DNA of 64,000 bases from an uncultured Cohaesibacter sp. (lineage in GTDB: Bacteria; Pseudomonadota; Alphaproteobacteria; Rhizobiales; Cohaesibacteraceae), in assembly GCF_963676275.1 (NCBI RefSeq), contig NZ_OY781091.1:3636775-3700774 (forward strand), given 5' to 3'. The position numbers and the translations under genes were made by a program. The number at the start of each line of letters is the position of its first letter. Position 1 is the stretch's first letter. Shown here piece after piece: positions 37,127 through 49,396 of this stretch. The notes below the pieces were generated by a model. It was given only the letters and a program-made list of their open reading frames with translations. It ran no database searches and was not told where the DNA came from.

Positions 37127-37634
37127 TGAGCCCTCCAAATTTTCAGCAAGGAATAAAGACAAGCGAACAGATAGGCTTGACACATATGCCGAGCCCGTTC
37201 GCCCGCGCACAGTAGTGCAGCCCCCATGACAATTCAAGGCAACTTGAGCAAGATTCGGTCATTTTTGGCCATTCTGCATCAAGAATCTTGCACACAAATG
37301 TACCCAACCAACAAGGGGCTGCCTACATTCGTTTCACCGCTACAGAGAAATCCGTAAACCCCAAGTCGTAGGAGCATGGCCCTTCTCCTAAACCGTTTAG
37401 GTTTGCCGTCCAATCGGCCCCACTTTGCCACAAGTGCGACATTCTGTCCAACATTACAATTCCGTAATTTTTGAATATTGCAATATACTAAAATATGGAC
37501 CGGGCGAGTCTGGCGCCCAATGACCAGATTGCGCAAGGCGCGAACAGCGGCCCCTGCGTACAGACTCGAAACCGATCGGTAACAGCCCTCCGACGACCAC
37601 CGATCGGGCATACTGCATCCGTTGGGAGGACCAA
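37127..37634. other. Divergent region between aspC and the first octaheme cytochrome
   Basis: About 500 bp with promoters for both divergent genes. It holds one copy of the 18-bp sulfur-gene motif at 37474-37491. No gene is supported. Confidence 0.5.
37474..37491. promoter_or_regulatory. Sulfur-regulon motif, copy 1 (upstream of octaheme gene 1)
   Basis: AATATTGCAATATACTAA; its complement TTAGTATATTGCAATATT matches the consensus TTAGTAWWTNNNAATATT found before three other sulfur-related units here. It is 144 bp before the start codon. Confidence 0.6.
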
Positions 37635-39386
37635 ATGACGGACCATGCAGCCTCTAGGGGCTTGGGTTATGCCTTCAGACTACTGTCTGTGGCAACCCTG
37701 TTCACTCTGTTTGCATCCATTTCAGGACCGGAGATCGGATGGAACAGCGCTTTCGCCAATCCCGCTACCCCAGACAATCCCGCCGCTCAGAATTCTGCAA
37801 CCATCCAGAGAACCGGGCAGAGAACCGGACAGAGGACAGAGCAGATAACCGGCAAAAAGCCGGGTGAGACCGCCGATCACAGCAAGTTCGAAATCCTGCA
37901 ACAGGATTTCAAGAGCGGACCGGAAGTAACCAGAGCCTGCCTCTCCTGCCACACTGAAGCGGCGACCCAGGTGCATGATTCCATTCACTGGAAATGGGAC
38001 TATGACAATGAGAAAACCGGCCAGAAACTCGGCAAGCGCTATGTCATAAATGCCTTTTGCGGCAATGTTGCCTCAAACGAGGCCCGCTGCACCTCCTGCC
38101 ACGCCGGATATGGCTGGACCGACATGCGCAAGGATCCTCCGGCCGCCCCCGAAGCCGTGGATTGTCTCGTCTGCCATGCAGACACCCAATATTACAAGAA
38201 ATTCCCGGCCAAAGCCGGCCTGCCCGTTACCGAACCGACGATGTTCGGCGGCAAGCCCTTTAAGGTCTCCAACCTGATTGAAGCGGCCCAGTCGGTCGGG
38301 CTCCCCCAGCGCGACAATTGCGGTGCCTGCCATTATTATGGCGGCGGCGGTGATGGCGTCAAACATGGCGACATCGACAGCTCTCTGGACAATCCCTCCA
38401 TTGATCTGGATGTGCATATGGCTGCCGATGGCGGCAACATGGCCTGCTCGGCCTGCCATTCCGGCTCTGGCCATGTCTGGCCGGGTTCGCGCTATGACAT
38501 GGAAGCCAAACCGGAGGCTCGCGACGAAGAAGGCAAGAAACTGCCCTCCTTTGCCATGCGGCGGATGAATGAAACCGCCTCCTGCGAGAGCTGCCACACC
38601 GACGCGCCCCATCAGGGCAAGACGCTGGAAGCAATCAAGCTGAACAACCACACCGACACGGTCGCCTGCCAGACCTGCCATATTCCCGAATTCGCCCGCG
38701 GTGGCGTTGCCACCAAGATGCTCTGGGACTGGTCAACCGCTGGCCAGTTGAAAGACGGCAAGCCCTTCACCAAACAGGACGACAAGGGCCATCCGAGCTA
38801 TGATTCCAAGAAGGGTGACTTCATCTATGAAGAGAATGTGCAGCCGACCTATAGCTGGTTCAACGGCAAGGTCACCTATGTCACCGACGACGATGCTCTG
38901 GACACCTCGAAGCCGGTGATCCTCAACGCCCTTGGCGGCAGCGCCGAGGACGAGAATGCCCGCATCTGGCCCTTCAAGCTGATGCATACCAAGCAGCCCA
39001 TAGACGCCGAGAGCAGAAAACTCGTCTATATGCATCTGTTCGGTCAGGACGCCGATGCCTTCTGGAAAAGCTTTGACTGGCCCAATGCCATCAAGGCCGG
39101 TCAGGCCTATATGGGCAAGGACTATTCGGGCAAGTTCGAATTTGTCGAAACCCGCATGTGGTGGCCGATCACCCACATGGTCGCACCGGCAGACAAAGCC
39201 GTTCAATGCGATGAATGCCACGTCAAGGGCGGCCGTCTGGAAGATATCGAAGGTGTCTATATTCCGGGCCGGGATGACATGCCGATGATCAACTGGTTCG
39301 GCTATGGCCTCATCATCCTGACCATTATCGGCGTCGCGATCCATTCGATCTTCCGTTTTGCCACCCGCAAGCAACGTCAACATTAG
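37635..39386 (+). CDS. Octaheme tetrathionate-reductase-family cytochrome c, copy 1
   Basis: A 583-residue multiheme cytochrome. A signal/anchor segment lies at residues 11-40. Eight CXXCH haem sites start at residues 102, 152, 177, 229, 271, 317, 345 and 525. One C-terminal membrane helix (about 555-575) anchors it, so the haems face the periplasm. The family is typified by Shewanella OTR, which reduces tetrathionate (and nitrite or hydroxylamine) in vitro. A non-haem Cys in AFCGNVASN (Cys142), next to the second haem site, may be the counterpart of the active-site Cys. GQRT occurs twice in a row near residue 61. The b-type cytochrome gene follows 12 bp later, so electrons likely pass between the two. 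Confidence 0.92.
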   Translation: MTDHAASRGLGYAFRLLSVATLFTLFASISGPEIGWNSAFANPATPDNPAAQNSATIQRTGQRTGQRTEQITGKKPGETADHSKFEILQQDFKSGPEVTRACLSCHTEAATQVHDSIHWKWDYDNEKTGQKLGKRYVINAFCGNVASNEARCTSCHAGYGWTDMRKDPPAAPEAVDCLVCHADTQYYKKFPAKAGLPVTEPTMFGGKPFKVSNLIEAAQSVGLPQRDNCGACHYYGGGGDGVKHGDIDSSLDNPSIDLDVHMAADGGNMACSACHSGSGHVWPGSRYDMEAKPEARDEEGKKLPSFAMRRMNETASCESCHTDAPHQGKTLEAIKLNNHTDTVACQTCHIPEFARGGVATKMLWDWSTAGQLKDGKPFTKQDDKGHPSYDSKKGDFIYEENVQPTYSWFNGKVTYVTDDDALDTSKPVILNALGGSAEDENARIWPFKLMHTKQPIDAESRKLVYMHLFGQDADAFWKSFDWPNAIKAGQAYMGKDYSGKFEFVETRMWWPITHMVAPADKAVQCDECHVKGGRLEDIEGVYIPGRDDMPMINWFGYGLIILTIIGVAIHSIFRFATRKQRQH

Positions 39387-39398
39387 GAGGACAGAATC

Positions 39399-48038: not shown

Positions 48039-49310
48039 TCAATTCTTGATCTTGGCGATATCAAGCAGGCTCAGAACGGCCTTCTCATAATAGGGTTCGG
48101 TTTCGCCCTTGCGGATCTTGCGCAGGAAATATTTCTCAAAGGCGATCTTGGCCAGATGCACCCATTTGCCCTGCCCTGAATAGTTGGTGTTGCGCGGCGG
48201 AATCTGCGGCATGGCAACAAAGGCCAGCCCGGAATCCCCGAAATCGGCAAGGCAAATCGCATTCCACGTCGCTTCGTGGCTTGGCTCCTTGCCGGAAAGC
48301 AGCTCCTTCAGATTCTTGGCGGAAGCCGTAACCATGGATTCGATCATATAGCCGGTTTTCGGCACGCCGACAGGAACCGGCGTCGGCTCGTAAGGCGCAA
48401 TCGCAATGCAGACGCCAATGCCGAAGATATTGGGATATTTCGGATTACGCTGATGCTTGTCGACGATCACGAAGCCGCGCGGATTGACCAGCCCCTCGAT
48501 GCCGCGCAAGGCTGGAATGCCGCGGAAGGCGGGCAGCATCATGGAATGTTTGAAAGGCAGTTCGTGCTTCTTCTTCTCCTTGCCATCGGCGTCAAACTCG
48601 GTGACAAACATCTTGCCTTCTTCGACCTTGTCGACCTTGGCATTGGTGATCCATTTCACCGTGCGGTCACGCATTGCCGATTCCAGCATGCCCTTGGTGT
48701 CACCAACGCCACCAAGCCCCAGATGCCCCACATAGGGCTCTGACGTCACGAAGGTCATCGGCACCTTGTCGCGGATCTTGCGCTTGCGCAGATCGGTATC
48801 GAAAATCATCGCCGTTTCATAGGCCGGGCCATAACAGGATGCCCCCTGCACGGCACCAACCACGATCGGGCCGGGATCAGCGCAGAAAGCTTCCCATTTC
48901 TCATAGCCCGAAGTCGCGTGATCGACATCACAAACCGAAATGGTGTTGCCCTCAGGCCCCAATCCCTCGATTTCATCAAAGGCCAGCTCCGGTCCGGTGG
49001 CAATCACCAGATAATCGTAGGAAACAGTCTCGCCATTCTCCAGACCCACCGAATTATTCTCCGGATCAAGGCTGGTAACGGCAGAGCAGATGAAATCCAC
49101 CTTGTTCTTGGGCAACACGGTTGCCAGATCAAGGGTGATATCCTTCTTCTTGCGCCAGCCGACAGCAACCCACGGGTTGGATGGTGTAAACTGGAAAAAC
49201 GGTTTGTTTGAAATCACGGTCACCTTGTCCATTTTGGACAATTCCTGACGCATTTCATAAGCAGCGGATAGACCTCCCAGGCCTCCCCCCAAAACCACTA
49301 CGTGAGTCAT
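48039..49310 (-). CDS. sqr: Sulfide:quinone oxidoreductase
   Basis: A 423-residue FAD protein that oxidises sulfide to sulfane sulfur or polysulfide and reduces quinone at the membrane surface. The FAD-binding start is HVVVLGGGLGGLSAAYEM. YLVIATGPELAF and VGAVQGASCYGPAYE follow, then PVPVGVPKTGYMIESMV. The three cysteines of the Acidithiobacillus-type enzyme are all in place here (Cys127, Cys159, Cys353), so it should be catalytically complete. An AAAGGAG site precedes the ATG. A perfect sulfur-regulon motif lies 69 bp upstream. It probably supplies sulfane sulfur that the octaheme cytochromes may handle further. Confidence 0.93.
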   Translation of the reverse strand: MTHVVVLGGGLGGLSAAYEMRQELSKMDKVTVISNKPFFQFTPSNPWVAVGWRKKKDITLDLATVLPKNKVDFICSAVTSLDPENNSVGLENGETVSYDYLVIATGPELAFDEIEGLGPEGNTISVCDVDHATSGYEKWEAFCADPGPIVVGAVQGASCYGPAYETAMIFDTDLRKRKIRDKVPMTFVTSEPYVGHLGLGGVGDTKGMLESAMRDRTVKWITNAKVDKVEEGKMFVTEFDADGKEKKKHELPFKHSMMLPAFRGIPALRGIEGLVNPRGFVIVDKHQRNPKYPNIFGIGVCIAIAPYEPTPVPVGVPKTGYMIESMVTASAKNLKELLSGKEPSHEATWNAICLADFGDSGLAFVAMPQIPPRNTNYSGQGKWVHLAKIAFEKYFLRKIRKGETEPYYEKAVLSLLDIAKIKN

Positions 49311-49378
49311 GCTCTCTCCTTTACGGCCCCGCCCCTCCCCGGAAAACGGAGCATCCCGATTGGCCTCATGCTTGTATT

Positions 49379-49396
49379 TTAGTAAATTCGAATATT
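49379..49396. promoter_or_regulatory. Sulfur-regulon motif, copy 4 (upstream of sqr)
   Basis: TTAGTAAATTCGAATATT is a perfect match to TTAGTAWWTNNNAATATT, 69 bp before the sqr start. The flank CTAAAATACAAGCAT resembles the one beside copy 2. Confidence 0.6.

Follow-up and report, generated by a model that had tools for sequence, protein, structure and literature searches.

SqrR of Rhodobacter capsulatus is a two-cysteine repressor of the ArsR family that is reported to control sqr and a rhodanese gene, to bind its target promoters and to be released through formation of an intramolecular tetrasulfide (PMC9995734); its recognition site has been deduced as ATTC-N8-GAAT (PMC9774250). BigR of Xylella and Agrobacterium is likewise an ArsR protein, described as repressing an operon for sulfide detoxification (PMC5823870). 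In Escherichia coli, an ArsR gene, that of YgaV, is followed by a rhodanese gene, that of YgaP (PMC9774250, PMC11858517); the YgaV footprint is reported to cover the −35 and −10 elements of its own promoter (PMC9774250), and YgaV is reported to repress anaerobic respiratory genes (PMC11858517). NolR of the rhizobia, another ArsR relative, is reported to regulate nodulation genes and to have the consensus (A/T)TTAG-N9-A(T/A) (PMC12445080). Here we describe a 64,000-nucleotide stretch from an uncultured Cohaesibacter sp. (hereafter the window, C1:3636775-3700774 of a genome that is one contig, C1, of 5,033,865 bases) in which a shared motif precedes a gene related to sulfide:quinone reductases (sqr), a gene for a DUF2892 membrane protein and two octaheme cytochrome genes. 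We propose that the motif is quite probably the operator of an autoregulated ArsR repressor of the BigR/SqrR kind, sensing sulfane sulfur, that is encoded outside the window at C1:2991122-2991463.

The motif was described in an earlier note on this DNA as an 18-mer with perfect copies before octaheme gene 1, the DUF2892 gene and sqr. Our search of the window recovered exactly these three copies of TTAGTAWWTNNNAATATT, at 37474-37491 (− strand), 43310-43327 (+) and 49379-49396 (+), separated from the respective start codons by 143, 17 and 68 bp. Local order-1 Markov simulations of the window, 200 in all, never produced the sequence, and six places with up to three mismatches were found against 1.44 expected, a count reached in one of 100 shuffles. 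The whole genome holds four exact copies, one copy with one mismatch and 18 with two (23 in total, compared with 12 for the reversed-pattern control). The fourth exact copy, at C1:2991001-2991018, is followed after 103 bp by an ArsR-family gene. The one-mismatch copy, at C1:2484828, stands 33 bp upstream of the adaptor gene in a resistance-nodulation-division (RND) efflux operon. When up to one mismatch was allowed, the 18 Cohaesibacter genomes compared (own genome included) gave 70 rows against 15 for the reversed control, whereas 23 other relatives gave 38 against 40; the enrichment is a property of the genus.

The earlier note had suggested a single regulator behind the motif, plausibly of BigR/SqrR type, and had remarked that the window contains no such gene. 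None of the 16 matches to the ArsR domain HTH_5 in the genome lies inside the window, and a regulator gene carrying the same site was located roughly 0.65-0.71 Mb away: it is the ArsR-family gene downstream of the fourth exact copy (C1:2991122-2991463, + strand), and a rhodanese gene follows it. Its product scores 50.6 bits in HTH_5 (cut-off 22) and 83.7 bits in NF033788 (cut-off 55), and has the features of an ArsR winged-helix protein. Two cysteines, one in an ILC segment and the other in a YC pair near the C-terminus, are invariant in the orthologues of all 18 genus genomes, and in all 18 a rhodanese gene lies within the same 3.3-kb locus. The nearest sequences in the PDB are HlyU (76.2 bits) and the ArsR entries 6o8k-6o8o (68.5-68.6 bits), which we take to be SqrR, followed by YgaV (66.2), NolR (65.4) and BigR (58.8). 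The ArsR-rhodanese gene order resembles that of YgaV-YgaP, and the pair of cysteines, the site spacing and the combination of proposed sqr and rhodanese targets resemble the SqrR system. Unlike the BigR operon, the partner here is a simple rhodanese and not a Blh transferase/dioxygenase, and the protein is not classed with NolR. A relative of the regulator in another genus (L098, genome G024) carries TCTCGTATATACGAATATTCG 23 bp before the matched stretch, at 22.8 bits; the counts given below omit the 12 regulator matches from other genera (L089-L100), of which only this one exceeded 20 bits.

Across the sites of the genus, the constant core was ATT[A/C]G-N6-C[T/G]AAT (the strict form), or more generally ATTM-N8-KAAT (the relaxed form). 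Judged by this core, the 18-mer frames the putative operator off centre. A dyad centred on ATATTC|GAATAT was tried and was rejected because the DUF2892 sites of relatives (TTAGAACTTGCGAATAT) break it while keeping TTAG...CGAAT. The predicted operator can be read as a relaxed form of the SqrR site, having the same spacing and relaxed letters; it differs from the SqrR site in that most of its arms read ATTC/TAAT or ATTA/TAAT, with G...C on the inside. The version ATTAG-N6-CTAAT also agrees with the NolR consensus. The strict arms occur at seven places in the 5.03-Mb genome, compared with two for the reversed control. Three of the seven are the sites of the regulator, DUF2892 and RND genes; of the others, 1974334, 2555916 and 2787874 fall within open frames and 1896059 lies about 140 bp before a PAS-domain gene.

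Conservation of the re-centred site was assessed by counting exact ATTM-N8-KAAT dyads up to 260 bp upstream of the orthologues in the genus, bearing in mind that these genomes are related and that the counts are not independent. The relaxed dyad was present in 18/18 RND promoters, 13/13 sqr promoters (five of the 18 genomes have no sqr-like match), 14/18 regulator promoters, with one mismatch in the remaining four, and 12/17 DUF2892 promoters, where two more had one mismatch and three lay beyond that (genome G005 has no DUF2892 match). For comparison, shuffling of 20-bp blocks gave per-family means of 0.41-0.78, with a maximum of 4, for the 200 bp upstream. The strict form was exact in 18/18 RND, 14/18 regulator and 11/17 DUF2892 promoters. 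The fraction of residues agreeing with the consensus in the arms, spacer and flank was 0.95, 0.87 and 0.54 for the regulator (18 sequences), 0.92, 0.79 and 0.66 for sqr (13), 1.00, 0.89 and 0.81 for RND (12 of 18 aligned) and 0.86, 0.77 and 0.67 for DUF2892 (17). The sites, their conservation and the pair of cysteines can be read from the DNA itself, as can the overlap with predicted promoters at two genes.

The two genes are sqr and the regulator gene. The sqr-like gene (48039-49310, − strand) encodes an FAD-dependent oxidoreductase related to sulfide:quinone reductases (Pyr_redox_2, 67.9 bits); its best NCBIfam model, SQR_III_seleno (NF049943), gave 99.6 bits, below the cut-off of 525, and hence we name it sqr-like only. 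A motif-blind sigma-70 scan predicted the promoter TTGTCC-16-TAAAAT at 49403-49376. On the gene strand, candidate operator 1, ATTCGAATTTACTAAA (49378-49393), covers the spacer and the −10 element (TAAAAT), and candidate operator 2, ATTAAATTGTCCTAAT (49394-49409), abuts it and covers the −35 element (TTGTCC). An equivalent of operator 1 is found 67-69 bp from the start in nine of the 13 genus genomes, and an exact relaxed dyad corresponding to operator 2 is found at 83-94 bp in all 13. The intergenic region that bears these sites is common to sqr and the divergent UvrB gene (49545-52244; UvrB_inter 120.3 bits, UvrB 84.3 bits). For the regulator, the same kind of scan predicted TTGACT-16-TAAATT (one site against 0.2 expected), with one dyad over the spacer and −10 element and a second downstream of −10. 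From the start of one tandem dyad to that of the next there are 15 bp at the regulator and 16 bp at sqr, and at both genes the TTAGTA arm of the 18-mer overlaps the predicted −10 element, a placement that resembles the YgaV footprint.

The DUF2892 gene (43089-43292, − strand) encodes a YgaP-like transmembrane protein of 67 residues (PF11127, 52.5 bits, cut-off 25.3) and is preceded by an exact strict dyad, ATTAGTATTTGCGAAT, at 43309-43324; the promoter candidate TTGTTA...TAATTT was noted by eye and was not called by the promoter scan. In YgaP, the rhodanese and the membrane part are joined in one protein. In the present genome two genes at different loci encode them, and the predicted operator is found at both. 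A further candidate target came from a genome search for the dyad with A/T flanks: the site at C1:1792137-1792156, before a TsoY-family gene (C1:1790765-1791979; NF047644, 478.9 bits, above the cut-off of 150). This site is one row, chosen by hand on account of its near-symmetric, A/T-rich shape; being one pick among many, it draws its weight from relatives. Orthologues of tsoY occur in six of the 18 genus genomes, own included, at seven places, and the relaxed dyad is exact in five of the seven promoters (one mismatch in the remaining two), as is the strict form (5/7). Two dyads 16 bp apart are found in six of the seven, with no more than two mismatches in the weaker one, and the seventh has three mismatches. 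In the papers listed by a literature search on TsoY, the letters stand for other things.

Octaheme 1 (37635-39386, + strand; TIGR04315, 608.3 bits, cut-off 375) and octaheme 2 (40472-42223, +; 612.7 bits) encode c-type cytochromes of the tetrathionate reductase family, each with a cytochrome b561-type membrane partner (39399-40115, +, PF01292, 88.4 bits; 42235-42954, +, 84.8 bits). Cytochromes of this type are reported to reduce tetrathionate, nitrite and hydroxylamine in vitro, with tetrathionate or nitrite reduction described for the proteins of Shewanella and Beggiatoaceae (PMC6449678). The closest named records are from Cohaesibacter haloalkalitolerans (87% identity over the best segment), C. 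marisflavi (86%) and C. celericrescens (59%). Octaheme 1 matches PDB entry 1sp3 at 339.8 bits, presumably the octaheme tetrathionate reductase Otr, and its eight CXXCH motifs are kept in the eight aligned proteins. Unlike the Shewanella enzyme, which is described as soluble and periplasmic (PMC6449678), it has a C-terminal membrane helix, recognized by eye, and the b561 partner. In genome G012, octaheme 1 is split into two open frames (L124 and L125, C1:4679803-4681505) and may, therefore, be inactive there; these two are omitted from the octaheme counts, and two of the 18 genus genomes have no octaheme.

Upstream of octaheme 1, the exact 18-mer (37474-37491, −) takes the dyad form ATTGC-N6-CTAAA at 37477-37492. 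It scores 27.6 bits here, 22.0 in genome G016 and 12.9-16.9 in six other promoters of the octaheme-1 type. A second dyad, ATTACAATTCCGTAAT (37453-37468; ATTA-N8-TAAT, in full ATTAC-N6-GTAAT), lies 24 bp upstream of it and is a plausible operator: the relaxed form is exact in all eight promoters of this type, at 151-168 bp, with invariant arms and a variable spacer. The consensus fractions were 1.00 for the arms, 0.75 for the spacer and 0.82 for the flank (eight sequences); since conservation is higher in the flanks than in the spacer, the conservation footprint is weaker at this gene. Because the inner base pair differs from that of the other operators, the second dyad could belong to another regulator. 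Among the other octahemes of the genus, an exact relaxed dyad was found in one of 15. Octaheme 2 does have an imperfect copy, CTACTAAATTCGAATATC (40313-40330, +), 141 bp from its start codon, as the earlier note had stated; of its three mismatches (positions 1, 4 and 18), however, the one at position 4 is internal and not at the edge. This copy is oriented oppositely, relative to its gene, to the three exact copies of the window. It has one good half-site (ATATTCG on the bottom strand), the second arm not being kept, and the ATTCGAAT part recurs at the corresponding place in eight genus genomes, own included. The flanking sequence said to be common to copies 2 and 4 of the motif does contain a shared 13-mer, TAAATTCGAATAT, whereas a further shared GCCTCAT is out of register, as judged by eye.

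Beyond the genus, we compared 82 octaheme upstream regions from 80 loci (six regions from Cohaesibacter and 76 from elsewhere). The relaxed dyad was present in four of the 82, two in Cohaesibacter and two in Vibrio, where an exact ATTAG-N6-CTAAT begins 36-37 bp before the octaheme open frame; across the 80 whole loci it was found 24 times, against four for the reversed control. One locus of the 80, that of Modicisalibacter ilicicola, has a BigR-type gene immediately before the octaheme-b561 genes; its product contains both cysteines and reaches 117.1 bits against the BigR model (cut-off 155). Within 6 kb there are also a TsoY-family gene (535.7 bits) and a gene for a YgaP-like membrane protein (Pfam, 82.4 bits, cut-off 25.3). 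Genes that have a common operator motif in Cohaesibacter are neighbours in Modicisalibacter. A Spirochaetes record (L304, 979-1829) has ArsR, rhodanese, octaheme and b561 genes in a row, and its ArsR protein is without the cysteine pair. A third match (L257, 22.5 bits) looks unrelated.

That the same apparent switch lies at sulfur genes and before a putative sulfide-sensing repressor suggests that one sensor probably controls them together. We infer binding, sensing and repression, as well as the identity of the acting dithiol protein, for the product of C1:2991122-2991463, with the persulfide mechanism proposed on account of its cysteines, the operator and the gene set. In the absence of sulfide, the repressor dimer would bind ATT[A/C]G-N6-C[T/G]AAT dyads, at several genes as two tandem dyads 15-16 bp apart over the core promoter, and RNA polymerase would be blocked. 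Once persulfide or polysulfide rises through the action of sulfide:quinone reductase and through other reactions, a sulfur bridge would form between the ILC and YC cysteines, the dimer would be released, and the genes would be expressed. The derepressed set would comprise sqr, DUF2892, the regulator-rhodanese pair, the RND efflux pump and the TsoY-family membrane protein, plausibly octaheme 1 with its b561 partner, and possibly octaheme 2 with its own. We regard control of sqr, DUF2892, RND, TsoY and the regulator itself as well supported by the site patterns, that of octaheme 1 as plausible and that of octaheme 2 as doubtful. The single BigR/SqrR-type control envisaged earlier is in part backed by a regulator gene with its own site, both cysteines, the SqrR spacing and the kept sqr and DUF2892 sites, while its extension to both octahemes met difficulties: the 18-mer of octaheme 1 is weaker in the sister species and octaheme 2 is missing its second arm. 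The proposed regulon goes beyond the SqrR targets in that it takes in an RND pump, a TsoY-family gene and perhaps the octahemes.

A number of observations weigh against this model. Against the NCBIfam BigR model NF040642 the regulator reaches 75.6 bits, under the cut-off of 155, and we do not class it with BigR in this narrower sense. The literal ATTC-N8-GAAT is found in none of the genus regulator (0/18), DUF2892, RND and tsoY promoters and in one of the 13 sqr promoters, and occurs elsewhere in the window at 1464, 30040, 37271 and 55916; the likeness to the SqrR site, therefore, consists of spacing and arm type. No sqr promoter has the exact strict form (0/13, all with one mismatch), nor has any of the octaheme-1 type (0/8, all two mismatches off), and five of the 17 DUF2892 promoters are without an exact relaxed dyad, three of them without one even at one mismatch. 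The relaxed dyad by itself is weak in the window (eight places against 3.95 expected), the tsoY site is one of 90 rows obtained at no more than one mismatch, where the reversed control gave 54, and the sigma-70 scan gave 10 promoter-like sites in the sqr region against 5.6 expected. Broader genome patterns yielded little beyond background, one search giving 73 rows against 38 reversed, with only the six known sites at 0-1 mismatch. No exact relaxed dyad was present in 78 of the 82 octaheme upstream regions (74 of the 76 outside Cohaesibacter), no strict dyad in the Modicisalibacter octaheme locus, and neither a strict nor a relaxed dyad, within one mismatch, upstream of octaheme 2. Finally, the genome encodes two more dithiol ArsR paralogues, at C1:4469681 and C1:2909777.

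One could envision that one of these paralogues, or several dithiol proteins together, reads the same operators. Both cysteines are present in each, C1:4469681 gives a better match to the BigR model (94.2 bits), and SoxR and sHdrR are reported to bind the same fragments in Hyphomicrobium (PMC12423496). On the other hand, only the C1:2991122 gene among the three has the motif: the 400 bp upstream of each paralogue contain no strict dyad with one mismatch or fewer (C1:4469681 has a two-mismatch row), and neither paralogue lies beside a recognizable sulfur gene in its 3.1-kb locus, as judged by eye, a cysteinyl-tRNA ligase-like frame near C1:2909777 excepted. We therefore consider control by a paralogue rather unlikely. 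Far less probable still is that the common sequence is an AT-rich promoter element and no operator, its TTAGTA arm being merely the complement of the −10 region. The overlap of this arm with −10-like hexamers at sqr and the regulator would be expected from such an element, whereas the mere four exact 18-mers in 5.03 Mb, the arms that are kept while the spacer changes, the second regulator dyad downstream of the predicted −10 and the tandem dyads at tsoY and sqr would not.

A tentative extension of the repressor model, which we hold to be possible but short of probable, is that the persulfide-sensing ArsR protein directly gates, in a single sulfane-sulfur response, the octahemes and their b561 partners together with the RND pump and TsoY; since YgaV represses anaerobic respiratory genes, it is plausible that respiratory reductases come under such control. 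A competing proposal, likewise possible but less likely than not, is that only sqr, DUF2892, the regulator, RND and TsoY are controlled and that the copies at the octahemes are remnants or chance. The half-site of octaheme 2, the weaker form of the octaheme 1 18-mer in the sisters and the rarity of the dyad among octaheme promoters at large agree with this proposal. The ATTAC-N6-GTAAT dyad kept in 8/8 octaheme-1-type promoters speaks against it, although the flanks are also well conserved, as do the two Vibrio octahemes with exact ATTAG-N6-CTAAT and the BigR-type gene before the Modicisalibacter octaheme. The natural substrate of octaheme cytochromes of the tetrathionate reductase type is unsettled, and control by a persulfide sensor would favour sulfur. 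If the octahemes do belong to the sulfane-sulfur response, their in vivo role would involve sulfur, and the pump might be suspected of exporting sulfur species; the regulon would also give the poorly understood TsoY and DUF2892 families, and the RND pump, a sulfide-response context. Among the papers listed by a literature search, judged by titles and abstract beginnings, none shows an octaheme under a regulator of the BigR/SqrR type, which does not prove that print has no such case.

Other genes of the window include, between the DUF2892 gene and sqr, those for a marine proteobacterial sortase target protein (43546-46077; TIGR03788, 772 bits) and a class GN sortase (46147-46761; TIGR03784, 177 bits). 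Another sulfur redox gene of the window, at 30100-31128, encodes the catalytic subunit of an MsrP-type methionine sulfoxide reductase (408.6 bits, cut-off 207); the one strict dyad that the window holds is not at this gene.

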